A stretch of DNA of 64,000 nucleotides, taken from contig NZ_JAAIXZ010000015.1 in the NCBI RefSeq assembly GCF_010894435.1, positions 124,001-188,000 of the forward strand, read 5' to 3'. The position numbers and the translations under genes were made by a program. This DNA is from Pyxidicoccus trucidator (GTDB lineage Bacteria; Myxococcota; Myxococcia; Myxococcales; Myxococcaceae). A model generated the notes under the pieces. It was not told the origin of the DNA. It did not search any database and worked only from the letters and a program-made list of their open reading frames with translations. How positions within the stretch are numbered: the stretch's first letter is position 1; every line of letters begins with the position of its first letter. This document shows positions 25,142 through 37,355 of this stretch, piece by piece.

Positions 25142-26050
25142 CTAACACCAATCCATGACAACGACTGTGAGGTCGGGGTCTAGCGCAAGAAGCGCAGTCT
25201 TGTGGGCGGGACTTCGGACCCCCACGACAAATTTATACCCGCAAGCCTCCGCAAGCATTTTCTCGCGTTTGCTCTCCGGTAGCTTGACTCTGGCAAAGAA
25301 CCTCTGGGAATGAGGCGAGTGTATGTCGAAATCATCAGTCTTTACTTCCCACAACGTGCGCGTGGCCAACTGCAGCGCGTCAAATTGCTTGCCATTGACG
25401 AGCACATCCCAGCCGGGGAAACCGTTATTCGGAATTGTGTCGGCGCACTTGTTGTGACCGTCGTCTCCGCCTCGGTGCGGCACTGGGACGGGCTCGCACT
25501 TGCGGCGGCGCTCTCGGTCCAGTGGATCGGTCGGCACCGGCGGGAACCAATCCTGCCCTGATGGCTCTGGCTCGGGCTTTCGATTCGCTGAGGACTCCTT
25601 AGGGGCGGTCTTGGTTTGGGGCTCGGGCTCGACTTCCTCCCGACTACTCCCTCTCAGCTCATACGCATCCAGCGCTTCCTTGATGACGACGCCCACCACC
25701 ACAACGCCAACGACAATCACCGCGCCCACAACGAGCTCCGGCGCCGCCAGGACACAGAGGCCGATTCCCAGGGCAGCCGTGCCGGTCGAAGCGACCGCGC
25801 ACCTTCCAGTGAGATCATTGAACCGGACCCGGTCATGGTCGAGAGCATGAAAGCACCGCTCCGCCAACTCGGGCCATGGCTGGGAAGCCTCCTGCACGAC
25901 GCAGCGCCCCCCATCCCTCCACGGGAGAGTTACCGCTCTCTGGAGGTTGGCAATCCTCGGGTTCCGGGACACGCGCTCTCTTGGGCTCGGCGCTGGCGTC
26001 GCGCAGGCCGAGAGAAAGAGTAGAAGTGCGGTGCAGGCTCGGAGTCGCAT
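25142..26050 (-). CDS. SitA-like lipoprotein toxin with PD-(D/E)xK-type C-terminal domain (DUF6310-like)
   Basis: The 302-residue product has a lipoprotein signal (LLLFLSACATP), then about 60 residues with WRDGGRCVV and FHALDHDRVRFNDL. A long hydrophobic helix follows (LVVGAVIVVGVVVVGVVI, about 105-125), then a charged Pro/Glu linker. The C-terminal 100 residues begin KCADTIPNNGFPGWDVLVNG and contain FDALQ...LWEVKTDDFD, a D-x(n)-E-x-K arrangement of PD-(D/E)xK nucleases, and end in LDPDLTVVVMDWC. In Myxococcus, lipoprotein toxins of the SitA class are transferred to siblings by TraA/TraB outer-membrane exchange and kill recipients lacking immunity. This gene plus the next fits that layout. 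An in-frame GTG at 26056 is an alternative start. Confidence 0.78.
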   Translation of the reverse strand: MRLRACTALLLFLSACATPAPSPRERVSRNPRIANLQRAVTLPWRDGGRCVVQEASQPWPELAERCFHALDHDRVRFNDLTGRCAVASTGTAALGIGLCVLAAPELVVGAVIVVGVVVVGVVIKEALDAYELRGSSREEVEPEPQTKTAPKESSANRKPEPEPSGQDWFPPVPTDPLDRERRRKCEPVPVPHRGGDDGHNKCADTIPNNGFPGWDVLVNGKQFDALQLATRTLWEVKTDDFDIHSPHSQRFFARVKLPESKREKMLAEACGYKFVVGVRSPAHKTALLALDPDLTVVVMDWC

Positions 26051-26147
26051 GGTCACGTCGTATCAATCAAGCGCGGGGGCTGTAGGTCAAGGCTTGCCTG
26101 CCCTCGGGTGAGCTTGCCCACGTAGCCGGGACAGGCCGCCTCGTCAC

Positions 26148-29898: not shown

Positions 29899-30912
29899 CT
29901 ATGGGCCATCCGTGCGCTCTGCGGGAGCCGAGGTGGATGGGCGTGGCCGTGCCAGGACGGGCATGTAGCACACGCCTTTGTAGACGAATCCGTCCTCGAC
30001 ATCGCAGTCCTTCACCTCCACGGGCAGCTTCACCCAACAACCGCCGTTGATGGGAACCTGCGCCGTGCCAGGACATCGGCCGTTGGCATTCGGGCGCCGC
30101 TGCCCCGGGAAGGGCTTGGGGGGCAGGTCCACCGCGAGGGTCGACCACACGAGGGAGGCTCGGTCGGGCTCCACCGGGGCTGTCAGCGCCGAGTCTCCGA
30201 CGGCCACGGCGCCGCCATCCCTCGCCTCTTCTTTCTCTGCCAGGGGCCTCGCCGCGGGCAGCTCGATGGCCCGTACACCCAGCACTCCCACGACACCCAG
30301 TGCCAGTGCGCCTCCCAGGCTGGCGGCCGCGAACCAGGGCCCCCTCGCCTCGCGACGGGGCCGGGCCATGACGTGCTGGGGGGCGGGCATGAGGCCCGCC
30401 GGCTGAGGCTCTTCTCCCGTGAAGAGGGGCCTGTCCGCCTCCGCCCCCGCATTCCGTGCCGCCTGCTCCAGCGCCTCGGCCACTTCACGCGCGCTGCCGC
30501 GTGCTTCAGGGCGCGGTGAGAGCATGCGGCTCACCAGCGCGCTCAACTCCAGACAGCAGCGGGCGTTGGTTTCCCTCGCCGACCAGGACTCCATCTCCTC
30601 CGGGCGCCACATCCACGCGTCCTCGTCGTCCGGGTGCGTCGGCGGCGGGTACTTCCCGGTGAGCAGCCGAAACGCGGTGACTCCCAGCGCGAAGACGTCA
30701 TCCGCGGGCACCGGCGCATAGGGGATGACGGGAGGTTTGCGGAAGCGAAGCACGTAACGCCACGCCTCCGGCGAGCGGTAGGCCGGCGTGCCGGGAGGAA
30801 ACGCATGCCACGTCAGCGTCGCTGCTCCCACGTAGTGCGACGAGCCGAAGTCCATGAGGAAGGGCTGTCCGTCCGCGCGGCACACCCGCACGTTGTCTCC
30901 CTTCACGTCTCG
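29899..30912 (-). pseudogene. 3' part of split Ser/Thr kinase (paralogue B)
   Basis: This stretch encodes RDVKGDN through the kinase C-lobe (DFGSS, GTPAYRSPEAW), the membrane helix and the Cys-containing outer domain, ending PAERTDGP. It is nearly identical to residues 142-478 of the intact kinase at 26148-27584. It has no start of its own; the frame opens into the mobile element on its right. Rejoined at the 8-bp repeat with 33511-33933 it gives 141 + 337 = 478 residues, exactly the paralogue's length, with no frameshift or stop. As it stands it is silent; after precise excision it would be functional. Confidence 0.9.
30905..30912. repeat. Left attachment core of the recombinase element
   Basis: ACGTCTCG here matches 33503-33510 exactly. 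Leftward sequence (CCCTTC) continues the kinase gene; rightward sequence is element DNA. On the coding strand the core reads CGAGACGT, the Arg-Asp-Val codons of the HRD loop. Confidence 0.8.
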
Positions 30913-30958
30913 ACGTAGGCAGCAAACTGCACCGCAGGGTGCACCGGGTTCAGAAACG

Positions 30959-31402
30959 GTGCGCATCACCTTCCCAGTGCACCCCCTGCGGGGCACGCCA
31001 TTGACGGTGGTGCGTACCGTCCGCAGCCAGGATGGGAAGCAGTACGTCGATGCCGAGCATCCCAAGGGTGGGCTCATTCGGGTGCCTCTGGAGTGGACCG
31101 ACCGCCGTACTCCCGTGGCGACGGCCATGGGTGCTGGGCAACAGGGGCGGCTGAATGCCCCTGCCTTACTGAAACTCGCGGAAGCCGTCGAGGAAGGGCT
31201 GAAGCGGTCTCTTGCCTTGGAGCCTGCGGCGCTACCCGAGCGGGACTCTAGCTTCAATCATGCCAGTAGCACCGCAACCCCGAGCCGACCTGCCCTGGTC
31301 CCACCTGCCCGAGGCAGCCAGGACGCAGTGGGTGGGCGCTTGGGCCAGCCTGCTGCACAAGGTGCTGCGCGACGAGGCCGGCGCCGGAGAGCCACGCCAT
31401 GA
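30959..31402 (+). CDS. DUF5372-like protein of the recombinase element
   Basis: The GTG at 30959 gives 147 residues. The first 80 (VRITFPVHPLRGTPLTVVRT, then YVDAEHPKGGLIRVPLEWTD and APALLKLAEAVEEGL) resemble small beta domains annotated DUF5372 that accompany serine recombinases in mobile elements. The last 45 residues overlap the next gene and look low-complexity. The stop overlaps the recombinase ATG by four bases, indicating coupled translation. Possibly a recombination directionality or DNA-binding accessory, by position only. No good ribosome site is visible, and the GTG lies only 46 bp inside the element. Confidence 0.6.
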   Translation: MRITFPVHPLRGTPLTVVRTVRSQDGKQYVDAEHPKGGLIRVPLEWTDRRTPVATAMGAGQQGRLNAPALLKLAEAVEEGLKRSLALEPAALPERDSSFNHASSTATPSRPALVPPARGSQDAVGGRLGQPAAQGAARRGRRRRATP

Positions 31403-31490
31403 GCGACAAGCTACAAGCCACTCACCTCCAACGACGGGCGGTCGTCTACCTACGGCAGTCCACGCTCAAGCAGGTCCACGAGCATCATGA
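31260..31490 (+). CDS. Small accessory protein of the recombinase element
   Basis: This 76-residue frame (ATG at 31260) overlaps both neighbours. Its first 50 residues (ADLPWSHLPEAARTQWVGAW, ASLLHKVLRDEAG) match a short helical type commonly found between DUF5372 genes and large serine recombinases. The C-terminal third, inside the recombinase gene, looks like read-through. No function is known. Confidence 0.45.
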   Translation: MPVAPQPRADLPWSHLPEAARTQWVGAWASLLHKVLRDEAGAGEPRHERQATSHSPPTTGGRLPTAVHAQAGPRAS

Positions 31491-33501
31491 GTCCACCGCC
31501 CGGCAGTATGCCCTGAAGCAGCGCGCGCAGGAGCTTGGCTGGCCCGCCGGGCGTATCGACGTCATTGATGAAGACCTGGGGCAGAGCGGCGCGGGGACCG
31601 CCTGGCGCTCGGGCTTCCAGCGGATGACAGAGGCGGTGGCCCACGGGCAGGTGGGTATTCTCCTCGCCCTGGAAGTGTCGCGGCTGGCGCGCTCCTCTGC
31701 GGACTGGCAGCGCCTACTGGAACTGTGCGCCCTGGCCGATGTCCTCATCGCGGACGAGCAGGCTATCTACACGCCGCGGGACTACAACGACCGGCTGCTG
31801 TTGGGGCTCAAGGGCACCATGAGCGAGGCGGAGCAGTACTGGATGCGGTTGCGGCTGCAGGGGGGCAAGTCATCCAAGGCTCGGCGCGGGGAACTCTTCC
31901 TCACGCCTCCCGCGGGGTACCAGTGGGACGACGCGACGCATCGGTTCTGCTTGGACCCGGACGAGCAGGTCCAGCGCGCGGTGCGGTTGGTCTTCGAGCG
32001 CTTCCGTCTGGACGGCAGTGCTTGGGCGGTGGTGCGCTACTTCGCGCGGAACGGGTTGAAGCTGCCCACGCACCAACTGCGAGGACGCCAGGTGCACTGG
32101 AGCCCTCCGCGCTATGACAGCGTGCTCGACATGCTCCACAACCCGCTCTACGCCGGCGCCTACGTCTATGGACGCAAGGAGGTGCGGATGGCGCTGGTGG
32201 AGGGGCAGTTGAAGCGACGGCACACCACCGTCCTGCCGCGCCAGGCGTGGAAGGTCTGCCTCTTCAACCACCACCCGGCCTATCTCAGCTGGGAGGAGTT
32301 CATGGCCAATCAGCAGAAGCTTGAGGGCAATCGGACTCACCACCTGCCGCACCAGCACGGCGCTGCGCGTGAAGGAGCGGCCCTGCTGCAGGGCCTGGTG
32401 CTGTGTGGCCGGTGCGGCCACTCCATGAGCGTGCGCTACCGGGGCGCCACTCACAGCCCCTACTACGAATGCCCGAATGACCCCGGCGCCATGGGAGGCA
32501 AGCGGCTGTGTTGGTTGGTGGCGGCCCGGCGCATCGATGACGCCGTCGCTCGACTCTTCCTCGAAGCGGTGCAGCCTCCGGAATTGGAACTCGGACTGGC
32601 CGTGGCGCGCGAAGTGGAGCGTCAGGCCGAGCAGCTGCATCAGCAGTGGAAGTTGCGGCTGGAGCGCTCGCGCTATGAGGCGCAGCTGGCCGAGCGCCGC
32701 TACAAGGCCGTGGACCCGGACAACCGAGTCGTCGCCCGCACCCTCGAGCATGAATGGAACGAGAAGCTGCGGGAGCTGGAGGAGTTGGAGAGCCAGTACC
32801 AGCAGGAGCGGCGGCGCCAGAAGCTGGAGCTTTCCGAGCAGGACCGCGCCCGCATCCTGGCGCTCTCCAAGAACTTGCCGCAGGTGTGGAGCGCACCGAG
32901 CACGACGAACGCGGAGCGCAAGAGGCTGCTACGCATCCTGGTGCAGAAAGTCGCGCTGAGCCCCGTGGAAGTCCCCAGCAGAAGGGTGCAGGTCCAGGTC
33001 GTCTGGGTGACCGGGACCGTCACGGACTTCACCCTGCCGCGGCGTCCGGACTTGCAGACGCGGAGCAATCCACCCGAGGCCGTCGAGCTCATCCTTCAGT
33101 GGTTCGAGCAGAAGAGCGACGCTCAAATCGCTGCCGAGCTCAATGGGCGGGGCCTGCGTACCGGGGCCAATCTGCCGTGGAACAAGAAGACGGTGCACCG
33201 GGTGTTGAACCAGAGAGGACTCCAGCGTGCGAGCCCGGCGCCTCAGTGTGTGCGGGCACCTTCTCGCCGAGCGGATGGGCTGTATTCCGTGCACGGTGTC
33301 GCCGAGCGTTTCGGCGTCTCCGAAGCCATGGTGCGTTACTGGATGGGGCGAGGATGGCTCGAACCGACAGAGGGAGGCGGACGTGGACACATCTGCTGGT
33401 TCAAGCTCGACCGCAAGGCGATCAGGAGATTGAACGCTGCCAGGGCCCGTCGCTCCGCCGGCTCCTCAAACCCCATGCAGCATGAGGTGCATTATGCGTA
33501 G
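31399..33501 (+). CDS. Large serine recombinase with extra C-terminal MerR-like helix-turn-helix
   Basis: The 700-residue protein starts with a resolvase/invertase catalytic domain ([11 protein letters not shown], catalytic Ser about residue 21; [13 protein letters not shown]). The recombinase domain follows ([21 protein letters not shown]), then a zinc-ribbon (CGRCGHSM... and a later YYEC...C, about 335-375). A coiled coil (about 400-490) and a C-terminal MerR-like motif ([20 protein letters not shown], about 629-648) complete it. It catalyses integration of the element between attP and the target, and possibly excision with a helper. Its stop codon abuts the right core, so the attachment site and gene end are nearly fused. 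The frame is intact, so the element may be active. Confidence 0.92.
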
Positions 33502-33933
33502 TACGTCTCGGTGCACTCCGCCCGCCGCGTGCGTGGCCTCCAGGGCCCGCGCCAGCCACGCGAGGACGCCCAGCACCTGCCGCGACGTGGGGCGCTGCAC
33601 GCGCGCCCAGTCATAGAGTGGGGTGCCCTCCACCAGCTCCATGGCGAGCCACGCGTAGGGCGTGCCCGTGAAGGACTCCCATTGCCCCTGCCCTCTCAGG
33701 CGCGGCACCGCCGGGTGCCTCAGGCGCGAGAGCAGCTCGGCTTCGCGCACGAAGCGTGCATCCCACGGGTACAGGGCCAGCTTGAGGGCCACCACGTCCG
33801 CACCCTCCCCTTCCTCCGCCACGGCGCGGTACACCACGCCGTAGGAGCCCCGGCCGAGATGCTCGACGAGGCGCCACGGGCCAATGCGCGTTCCCGACGG
33901 CAGGCCCGCCGGATTCAGGTGACCAGGCTCCAT
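33466..33933 (-). pseudogene. 5' part of split Ser/Thr kinase (paralogue B)
   Basis: The ATG at 33933 starts [18 protein letters not shown], nearly identical to the intact kinase, through glycine loop GRGSYGVVY and the catalytic Lys (VVALKLAL) to GGVH at residue 141. The reading then enters the element core as Arg-Asp-Val and ends after [11 protein letters not shown] at 33466. The expected 155-residue product lacks the catalytic Asp context, activation loop and C-lobe, so it cannot be a kinase by itself. The upstream sequence also matches that of kinase A (shared CTACTCGCTGAGT), so the promoter is probably intact. Confidence 0.9.
33503..33510. repeat. Right attachment core of the recombinase element
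   Basis: Second copy of ACGTCTCG. Rightward sequence (GTGCACTCCGCC) continues the 5' kinase fragment; leftward sequence holds the recombinase stop codon. Confidence 0.8.
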
Positions 33934-34505: not shown

Positions 34506-37355
34506 CTACGAAGCACGCCGGGTCATCAACCCTAGAAGCTGTGCCGCCTCCCTGGTGGCAGGATGATGCGTTCCCAGCACGCGGCGCCGCGTCGCGAGGA
34601 TACGAACCTGCACGGCCTGAGCATCGGAAGGCTCGCCCAGGGCGCAAAGCGTCTCGATCAATCGCTCTCGCGCCGCGAGTGTCCGTGGGTTTCCCGTTCC
34701 CAGGATGCGCGAGCGCGCCTCGAGTACGCGCTCCTGCAGGAGGAGCGCATCTCCGCGCTCACCCAGTCCCGCCAATATCAGCGCGAGGTTGTTCATGGCG
34801 GTCAACGTATCCGGGTGCTCTTGCCCGAGCACGCGTCTGCGCCCATCCAGGACCCGCTCCAACAGATTTCGTGCCTTCTCAGAGTGCCCCATGGCTCCCA
34901 GTGAGCCTGCCAGGTTGCTCAGGGCTGTCAGCGTATCTGGATGCTCCACCCCCAGCAGCCGCTGGCGTCTCTTGAGCACCTGTACTTGCAAGTCCCAGGC
35001 GGACTCTGGCTCTCGCATGGACCGAAGCGTTCCGGCCAGGTTGTTCATCGCAGTGAGCGTCGCGGAGTGGTCGGGACCCAGCAGGCGCCTTCGCGTCTGG
35101 AGCACGCGTTCCTGGAGCTCCTTCGCAAGCGCCAGCTCATTCTGATCCCCAAGCGTACCGGCCAGATTGTTCAGCGCCGTCAGGGTGTCGAGATGGTCAG
35201 GCCCCAGCATACGCTCACGGGCGCTGAGCACGCGCTCCTGCAGTGCCCTTGCCGCTGCCGGTTCGCCCATGGCCCGGAGCGTCAGTGCCAGGTTGCCCAT
35301 CGCCGCCAACGTATCGGGATTCTCTGCCCCATTCGAGAGCCCAGGCCCCTGCAGGCGCCTGCGCACATTCAGGATATGCTCTTGCAAAGCCTTTGCTCTG
35401 CTCGGGTCGCCCATCTCCAGCAGTGCCATGGCCAGGTTGCCCACGGCGGTCAGCGTGGCATCGTCGGACTTCCATCGTCCTTGAGTGCTTGCACTGAAGT
35501 AGTCACAGAGGCGCTCGGCATGCGGGCGGCACGCCATGACGAGCTGCCAGTCCGTGGATGCCCGCTCCCGGTCTGGAGCGATGAGCCCGCTGATGGCCGC
35601 GCACAGTTGCTGGATTTCCTTCTCCGGCTCGGACGAGCGCCCTCGAAGGAAATCCGCCAGTACCCGATGCATGAACCCGAAGAAATCGAGTCCCTTTCCG
35701 TGCCCTACGACGGGGGAGACAAAGCTCCGTGCGATGAGCTCTCCACGAACGCCCCCGGAGAACGCGTCTGGCCCCAGGGCGCTCAGTAGCGCCGTGGGAA
35801 TCGGCTCTGCATCCAGGTGCGCGACCAACCGTGCCGCGCGCTGCGCCTCGGGCGTCAGCTTCTCGTAGGAAACCCGGAAGGCCTCGACGATTCCACGCAA
35901 ACTACCCTTCGGCACCACGTTGCGAAGTTGCTCCCACCCCTCTTCCAGCACTTCTGCGGGGCCCGCCTCCAGGTGCGCGAGCAGCTCGGCGGGAAGCAGC
36001 ACCTTGTTCCACAACCCACTATTGAGCAGCGCCAGTGCCAAAGGCAGCCGCCCGACCCAATCCGCAATCCGCCCCCAGCCACCGTCCGCGGGGTTGGCCC
36101 CATCCACCCCATGCAGAAGCAGCGCGACCGCCGATTCCCGGCTCAAGACGTCCACCGGAAGCGACACCAACCCGCGTCCCTGTAGACGAAGCCTGGAGGT
36201 GAAGAGCGCCGACACCACGCCCAGCGCCGGACACCATGTCTCCAGAGCGGGAGGGGGCGTGCCCGGCACAGGCTCCGGCACGTTGTCCACCACATACAAG
36301 ACACGCCCACGTCTCGTGGCCTCTTCCAGCGCACGGGCCAACTCGTCCACCACCCTGCGTTTGTCCTTCCTGCAAGTGGCCAGGTCCGGAACCTGCGGTG
36401 AGAGGACTTGGAGGATGCCGTGATGCTGCTCCTCCAATGCGTCCATGCCGACGTCCGCATCCACCCAGAAGATGCCACCCGGGTAGTACCGGGGTCCAAA
36501 GCGATGCACGTACTCCCAGGCCAGTGTCGTCTTCCCCGCCCCACCCACGCCCGCGAGTGCGCCTGTGAGCGCTGTTCCGGTTCGCCCGTCGGGAGTCCCC
36601 GCCGAGAGCGCGAAATGGATACGCCACAGGTCCTCGGCCCGGCCCTTGAAAGCGTCTCGCAGTGATTGGGCTCTGCGGTTGGACGGTGGGTAGAGGGGCC
36701 GAAAACCCGCCAGTCCATTGGGTGATGGCAGCAGAGGCCGGGTGGTCAGCTCTGCTTGAACAGCCTCCGGCGCCAGCCCCGTGCTCCTGAGTCGGTCGGC
36801 AAGGGAGCGCTGGACCCTGGACAGCCGGGCACGGACCTCCGCGCCAAGCCGGCCGGGCTCATCCGCCGTCACGACCTCGCCGAGGGGGAATGGCAGCAAC
36901 TGCATTTCCGCTGGCACCGTTTCAGGTGAGGTCACTGCCACGACGACCGAATCCAGGACTTCCCGCTGCTGTGTCTCGCGCCCTTCCCGTGCATCCTGAT
37001 GGGGCTTGAGCAGGGTCTCCAGCTCCCACAAGCAATACCAGCGACGGAAGTACTCCGCGTCAGCGAAGACGACCACCACTCGCGCGGCGAGCAGCGCCAT
37101 CGCCGTGGCCTCTGGAAGGTGCTCCTCCTCCATGGCCGAGGTGTCCAGGAAGGAGGTGTCCGCCCCCAGCTCGCAGTGAAGCGCCTCCGCGCGCCCGGAG
37201 CTCGTGCCTCGCGCATACGAGATGAAGACCGCGCGGCCCGTGAAAGCGGCCTGCGGTCCGCGCGGTAGCGGCGGGACGGGGCTCACCTCCCCCGCCTGCA
37301 GGCTCGGAACGACTCGCGCTTGCGGTCCCGAGCCTAGCGAGGGGACGAACGGCAC
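34506..37355 (-). CDS. TIR-STAND(NB-ARC-like)-TPR protein, putative immune effector
   Basis: From GTG 37355 the protein has 949 residues. Residues about 38-170 form a TIR domain (AVFISYARG; WYCLWELE with the Glu position used for NAD cleavage). A STAND ATPase follows with P-loop GVGGAGKTTLAWEY (about 270-283), Walker B VLYVVDNV, an LFTSR sensor and GRLPLALALL. The last 330 residues are kinesin-light-chain-like TPRs (repeats of HPDTLTAMNNLA and ALQERVL..RRR). The layout is receptor (TPR), switch (STAND) and killer (TIR), as in bacterial NLR-like anti-phage proteins. It overlaps the SIR2-like gene by 22 bases. Alternative: a signalling protein unrelated to phage. Confidence 0.85.
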   Translation of the reverse strand: MPFVPSLGSGPQARVVPSLQAGEVSPVPPLPRGPQAAFTGRAVFISYARGTSSGRAEALHCELGADTSFLDTSAMEEEHLPEATAMALLAARVVVVFADAEYFRRWYCLWELETLLKPHQDAREGRETQQREVLDSVVVAVTSPETVPAEMQLLPFPLGEVVTADEPGRLGAEVRARLSRVQRSLADRLRSTGLAPEAVQAELTTRPLLPSPNGLAGFRPLYPPSNRRAQSLRDAFKGRAEDLWRIHFALSAGTPDGRTGTALTGALAGVGGAGKTTLAWEYVHRFGPRYYPGGIFWVDADVGMDALEEQHHGILQVLSPQVPDLATCRKDKRRVVDELARALEEATRRGRVLYVVDNVPEPVPGTPPPALETWCPALGVVSALFTSRLRLQGRGLVSLPVDVLSRESAVALLLHGVDGANPADGGWGRIADWVGRLPLALALLNSGLWNKVLLPAELLAHLEAGPAEVLEEGWEQLRNVVPKGSLRGIVEAFRVSYEKLTPEAQRAARLVAHLDAEPIPTALLSALGPDAFSGGVRGELIARSFVSPVVGHGKGLDFFGFMHRVLADFLRGRSSEPEKEIQQLCAAISGLIAPDRERASTDWQLVMACRPHAERLCDYFSASTQGRWKSDDATLTAVGNLAMALLEMGDPSRAKALQEHILNVRRRLQGPGLSNGAENPDTLAAMGNLALTLRAMGEPAAARALQERVLSARERMLGPDHLDTLTALNNLAGTLGDQNELALAKELQERVLQTRRRLLGPDHSATLTAMNNLAGTLRSMREPESAWDLQVQVLKRRQRLLGVEHPDTLTALSNLAGSLGAMGHSEKARNLLERVLDGRRRVLGQEHPDTLTAMNNLALILAGLGERGDALLLQERVLEARSRILGTGNPRTLAARERLIETLCALGEPSDAQAVQVRILATRRRVLGTHHPATREAAQLLGLMTRRAS

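Follow-up and report, generated by a model that had tools for sequence, protein, structure and literature searches.

A 2.6-kb large serine recombinase element at the catalytic-loop codons of kinase genes in Pyxidicoccus

Why should an inserted element sit exactly at the HRD codons of a protein kinase gene, where its removal would leave the gene intact? We address this question for a 64,000-nucleotide stretch of Pyxidicoccus trucidator (contig NZ_JAAIXZ010000015.1, positions 124,001 to 188,000; hereafter the window), in which a Ser/Thr kinase gene is divided by an insert encoding a large serine recombinase. The results show that the same element occupies the same codons of other kinase genes in a sister species, and we consider it very probable that it is a minimal self-mobile, site-specific insertion element whose recombinase recognises kinase catalytic-loop DNA as its attachment site. 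The exact HRD position would thus come from the attachment-site preference of a recombinase clade and not from the regulation of one kinase.

A kinase gene divided at its catalytic loop

The split gene, the insert and the intact comparison gene lie in the window as follows.

29899-30912, minus strand: 3' part of the kinase gene, 337 codons and the stop, ending at the HRD Arg/Asp codons
30905-30912, plus strand: left copy of the repeat ACGTCTCG, predicted crossover dinucleotide TC at 30910-30911
30913-33510, plus strand: the element, 2,598 bp with the right repeat copy counted in
33503-33510, plus strand: right copy of ACGTCTCG, predicted crossover dinucleotide TC at 33508-33509
33511-33933, minus strand: 5' part of the kinase gene, 141 codons
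26148-27584, minus strand: intact kinase paralogue of the same family with an empty site, 478 aa

The boundaries of the element were set by comparison with the intact paralogue and with three sister-species copies of equal length. Removal of the insert in silico gives a Ser/Thr kinase gene of 1,437 bp that encodes 478 aa (141 + 337) with no inner stop, the same length as the paralogue. At the DNA level, the joined flanks and the paralogue region share 88% identity (1335/1513) in an alignment that spans the junction. Pfam finds Pkinase (PF00069) both on the piece containing the 3' part (E 6.7e-10) and on the piece containing the 5' part (E 3.8e-11). The repeat taken alone is weak evidence, since the window contains 8 occurrences of ACGTCTCG where 3.5 are expected; the insertion is settled by comparing the gene with its paralogue. 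A sequence-only reading of the locus had described a serine recombinase element flanked by 8-bp repeats, placed exactly at the HRD codons and splitting a kinase frame of 478 residues that excision would restore, and this description is borne out by these comparisons.

In the C-half of the window kinase we count 4 private replacement and 15 private silent changes, against 8 and 19 in the paralogue. Decay is not seen in these counts, and a recent insertion would likewise show so few private replacements.

Copies in a sister species and the attachment site

Of 145 genomes of the order, 15 contain a match to the recombinase at E 1e-60 or better. Among those 15, the close form (89–91% amino acid identity) occurs, apart from the window's own genome (G000), in one genome only, that of a sister species of the same genus (G105). 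G105 carries three full copies (L098, L099 and L100, also numbered L057, L071 and L077) and one truncated copy (L101, also L084), while G000 holds a single one. A DNA search of 27 genomes of the genus, one genome per species, placed the element itself in no genome besides G000 and G105, ten others giving only short weak matches. Distant recombinases of 38–43% identity are found in three genus genomes (G095, G108 and G113). Viral contigs gave no match to the element's right end and no relative of the recombinase; relatives occur in 450 plasmid records, every one below 60% identity.

Each of the three full G105 copies measures 2,598 bp and splits a kinase gene of the same family at the HRD codons. 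Without the insert, these kinases are open across the stretch read, which for the kinases of L099 and L100 (L071 and L077) stopped short of the stop codon. In L101 (G105:C1:4741000-4750000) about 1.04 kb of the left part of the element is left, with the left junction also at HRD codons; the right part of the element and the kinase N-half are lost, which demonstrates that decay after insertion does happen.

The elements and their host genes differ strongly in divergence. The full G105 elements are 99.1–100% identical, against 62–74% for the kinase halves of L098, L099 and L100; L098 and L099 are identical over the whole 2,598 bp in kinase halves that are 65–66% alike. Near-identical elements in divergent kinases indicate that the insertions are separate and recent, and there were at least four of them at the same codons (the window; L098 or L101; L099; L100). 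Counting the window, the site holds a full copy in each of four different kinase genes, and L101 adds its left junction: one coding site has been used repeatedly by one recombinase clade, with a recent spread in G105. With 150 candidates scored per genome, kinase matches number at least 154 in G000 and at least 153 in G105, and one fixed position per kinase would be struck with a probability of about 1.2e-5 per random insertion (arithmetic from 154 kinase matches and 12.67 Mb).

We compared private changes in the kinase C-half of L100 with three intact homologues. L100 shows 30–34 replacement and 20–21 silent changes and the homologues 9/12, 25/25 and 22/18, so that its ratio lies above each of the three. 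This may reflect some relaxed constraint.

The 8-mers at the left and right junctions are ACGTCTCG/ACGTCTCG in the window, ACGTCTCG/ACATCTCG in both L098 and L099, and ACATCCCG/ACATCCCG in L100; the left 8-mer of L101 is ACATCACG. At position 3 of the right-hand repeat the three full G105 copies agree, and this base is thus probably the element's own. At position 6 both sides agree within each full copy, and the base fits the kinase: it is C in 5/5 intact homologues of the L100 kinase read, as at both L100 junctions. Among the homologues read, the five nearest to the L100 kinase have an empty site.

When the element ends of the window copy are joined, they form a dyad with 16/24 pairs, matched by 0 of 2000 composition shuffles; the joined ends of L098 give 15/24 pairs, with 2 of 2000 shuffles equally good. 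The outer arms of this putative attP are the following.

30928-30933, plus strand: left outer arm TGCACC
33486-33491, plus strand: right outer arm GGTGCA, inside the end of the recombinase gene

The centre of the dyad falls on repeat positions 6-7, the TC within the HRD Arg codon, and strand exchange is accordingly predicted inside that codon. The locus has a short common core at both junctions and a dyad at the joined ends, features expected of a site-specific large serine recombinase element. Exact matches to CCCTTCACRTCNCGGTG, a 17-mer from the empty site, number 13 in G000 and 15 in G105, against 0 and 0 for the reversed control. By coordinates, 12/13 of these matches in G000 and 11/15 in G105 abut a kinase homologue among those compared.

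Genes of the element and targets of related recombinases

Three open reading frames were considered on the element.

31399-33501, plus strand: large serine recombinase, 700 aa, open frame, with Resolvase, Recombinase, zinc ribbon and C-terminal MerR-type helix-turn-helix (HTH)
30959-31402, plus strand: weakly DUF5372-like frame with a GTG start chosen by us (PF17342, E 1.2e-4, 22.5 bits, cut-off 25)
31260-31490, plus strand: small overlapping frame, doubtful, no Pfam match

The recombinase matches PF00239 (2.1e-20), PF07508 (5.6e-20) and PF13408 (2.7e-8), with Resolvase at residues 14-165 and the MerR-type HTH at 629-690. Among solved structures in the PDB, the YokA recombinase chain comes closest to it (E 7.3e-10), YokA being the SPbeta integrase. 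Substitutions relative to the sister-species copy L098 fall 57/30/154 on the three codon positions. The recombinase hence evolves as a protein with its frame under constraint, in keeping with the earlier statement that the frame is intact. The MerR-type fold is frequent among excisionases, so that the C-terminal HTH of the recombinase could serve as a built-in directionality part. IS607 also carries a MerR-type HTH.

The DUF5372-like frame ends in an overlap with the recombinase start (ATGA). Against the sister copy, its first 300 bases show a third-position excess (16/16/36) that is absent from its last 47 codons (9/6/5). DUF5372 matches were obtained in 6/6 pieces tested, from L098 of the same clade and five copies of other groups, at E 8e-5 to 0.038, all below the cut-off. 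In the small frame, the part before the recombinase start has 37/47 amino acids identical to the sister copy with substitutions of 6/5/9, and the entire frame 60/76 with 12/5/10; a third-position excess is again absent. No cargo gene was recognised on the 2,598-bp element.

Beside these main subjects, two neighbouring genes may be mentioned. The gene adjoining the split kinase (34506-37355, minus strand) encodes a 949-aa protein with many TPR repeats and sub-threshold, weak TIR and AAA matches, which may be an NLR-like defence or signalling protein. A DUF6310 gene (25142-26056, minus strand; Pfam E 3.9e-58) stands beside the intact kinase paralogue.

Related recombinases sit in other genes, those of groups B, C and D being from the same order. 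The target assignments cover the loci other than L113, L114, L115, L116, L117, L104, L006-L008 and L065-L070. Group B, from the g3 and g7 genomes with Archangium lansinium, is inserted in a Y2_Tnp-family (IS91-type) transposase gene, between ...HANDRQG and (L)ER[LP]xRYGARG. Six of its seven copies were translated, the left motif being read in 4/6 (L003 and L106 show no left transposase reading) and the right-flank DNA being related by eye in 6/6; L107 is without a right end, and the tree treats all seven as one target group. Pfam places Y2_Tnp above the cut-off in the C-half pieces of L103 and L033; the L103 N-half piece has no match. The insertions of group C (L108-L110) are found close to the C-terminal end of a gene resembling this one, at ...CGGKRRVLA in L109, whose piece matches Y2_Tnp at 8.9e-4 and 19.8 bits against a cut-off of 20.9. 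Group D (L004 and L005, Archangium lansinium) lies, by eye, in genes resembling the DUF6310 gene of the window; its two members are 92% alike, flanks included, and may therefore be one duplicated insertion. For group E (L111 and L112), the left junction alone was read and the gene was named by eye.

Rhizobial and related elements (L009, L011, L014, L015 and L023) occupy the istB gene of IS21-type elements, where the insertion falls on the ...(G)(D/E)P codons. This reading is based on five of 29 loci translated and on three N-halves put to Pfam, two from Bradyrhizobium and one from Azospirillum, all of which match IstB_IS21 (E 2.8e-39 to 1.5e-42). To judge from these sequences, the istB-occupying elements would be a case of one mobile element silencing another.

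Copies within group B, within group C and within the rhizobial clade share a site inside each group. The recombinase tree comprises 43 rows, 38 of them different, with 18 rows in the five labelled target groups and the rhizobial rows unlabelled. Support for the kinase clade is 100/100. The five labelled groups need 4 changes of target, the minimum, a value reached by 0/200 shuffles, near-copies adding to this clustering. Since related clades sit in other genes, the family as a whole has no bias towards kinases. Dyads were also assessed in these groups, with cores read from the junctions, and are beyond chance in group C (9/2000 shuffles as good) and in group D (5 and 2 of 2000).

Competing explanations and known systems

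Based on these observations, the favoured mechanism can be outlined. The codons for V-H-R-D-V-K-G of the catalytic loop would serve as attachment site; the element, or a copy of it, would leave one kinase gene as a circle and would be joined into the same codons of another paralogue (attP x attB) by a two-base exchange inside the HRD Arg codon, and kinase function would be lost while the site is occupied. Eukaryote-like kinases form a large family in these bacteria and so would offer many equivalent, mostly dispensable landing sites, the size of the family making the loss of single kinases bearable. The circle intermediate, the two-base overlap, the length of attB, the loss of the kinase while occupied and its dispensability are inferred.

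Some of our results count against this mechanism. Position 6 is T, C or A among nearly identical elements, which a strict match of a two-base overlap does not readily explain; either recombination goes through despite a mismatched overlap, which is then resolved in favour of the target base, or lineages with different overlaps pick matching kinases. Group B and the rhizobial L015 have no dyad beyond chance (1489/2000 and 1921/2000 shuffles as good), and that of the rhizobial L011 is weak (106/2000). Joined ends, as of a circle or a tandem, were found in none of the 27 genus genomes at up to 2 mismatches, an arrangement that an assembly would rarely show for a circle. The comparison of occupied and empty alleles that had been suggested for the window kinase yielded no orthologous empty allele in the genus, the best foreign match, to the kinase 5' half, being 77%. 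L098 and L101, whose kinase C-halves are 93.9% alike and whose elements are 98.7% alike, may descend from one ancestral occupied gene. Finally, the kinase-targeting clade is known in two genomes alone, and the target comparison was made apart from the distant recombinases of G095, G108 and G113.

The alternative put forward in the sequence-only reading, a reversible switch comparable to the elements that interrupt sigK (skin) or nif genes (such as the fdxN element), which would hold the kinase off until its programmed excision in a given cell state, would account for the precise insertion, the intact frames on both sides and the few private replacements in the window kinase (4 against 15 silent), as a functional gene would show. 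The recombinase is also weakly XisF-like, although its 79.1 bits on the XisF equivalog model of NCBIfam fall short of the cut-off of 375. The analogy is nevertheless not supported: the close form is present in 2/27 genus genomes, in different kinase paralogues and with one copy decayed, the 99–100% identity of full copies is the pattern of a mobile element, and the somewhat raised replacement/silent ratio in the C-half of the L100 kinase also counts against a switch. Excision of fdxN by XisF uses xisH and xisI (PMC4853749), and neither these nor a directionality factor were recognised by Pfam or NCBIfam among the genes of the 2.6-kb element, though the DUF5372-like protein may have such a role. 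We therefore regard the programmed switch as improbable. A related possibility, somewhat less improbable although still unlikely, is a roaming kinome off-switch, in which the element, by its exact excision from one kinase gene, would restore that gene and would silence a different paralogue; cells of one population would then differ in which sensor kinases work.

Two further explanations dispense with a recurring choice of site. An ordinary insertion with little target preference, striking a kinase by chance, could be suggested by the single copy in the window's genome and by the low specificity of some serine transposases such as IS607 (PMC4058570 and PMC6188088). It is contradicted by three more full copies, which occupy these codons in other kinases, and by the additional left junction, and groups B and C and the rhizobial clade likewise share sites within each group, which leaves this explanation next to no probability. 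Descent of all occupied kinases by duplication from one occupied gene, the shared site being a single event, is favoured by the kinases being paralogues and by the resemblance between the L098 and L101 C-halves. The contrast in G105 between elements and kinase halves would, however, need gene conversion confined exactly to the element, and the five nearest read homologues of the L100 kinase are empty; we consider such descent very improbable.

A site-specific element that recognises the kinase catalytic loop would be relevant in several respects. It indicates that a very small element can multiply within one genome and yet stay site-specific when its landing site consists of conserved active-site codons of a big gene family. 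Recombinase clades with different targets (istB, the Y2_Tnp transposase, the DUF6310-like gene and the kinase HRD codons) form a natural series for learning how serine recombinases gain new specificities, and a recombinase that reads HRD-loop DNA may be of use for tagging many myxobacterial kinases simultaneously.

Conserved active-site codons are also favoured by inteins and homing endonuclease introns. Those, however, are spliced out, whereas the present insert disrupts its gene and would depend on dispensable paralogues. With the IS607 family (PMC4058570, PMC6188088) the element shares its small size and its movement by a serine recombinase. The family is characterised by an N-terminal DNA-binding domain preceding the catalytic domain and by minimal target specificity; here, on the contrary, the order is Resolvase domain before HTH, and a specific target is used. 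The skin element of sigK in C. difficile (PMC5025042) is likewise a large serine recombinase element that splits a regulatory gene whose frame can be restored. There, skin occupies one gene in most strains, comprises 19 genes and has a known directionality factor, while here different kinases are occupied sporadically and no such factor was recognised.

In a search of titles and abstract openings, with subscription papers outside it, no paper came up that deals with this element family or with the HRD loop of kinases as an attachment site, nor, in the literature searched and with the same restriction, any on DUF5372. The kind of element is already known, as site-specific large serine recombinase elements were described by Durrant et al. 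2022 (PMC10083194). In that study, thousands of large serine recombinases are reported, 83–88% of clusters being site-specific for one to three gene clusters, and 33 related recombinases strike one conserved site in a prolyl isomerase gene. A multi-targeting, TndX-like clade, 63% of which has DUF4368, is described there as well. The shared trait with that clade is that one cluster strikes several different genes; in contrast to it, DUF4368 gives no match at E 0.01 in our recombinase, and the copies keep to one motif of one gene family. Like the elements of that study, the present one is moved by a large serine recombinase and disrupts a conserved gene family at a conserved coding site; unlike them, it measures only 2.6 kb, and the word kinase does not appear in the main text of that study. 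Because its target is a large paralogous family, several copies of the element can accumulate in one genome.

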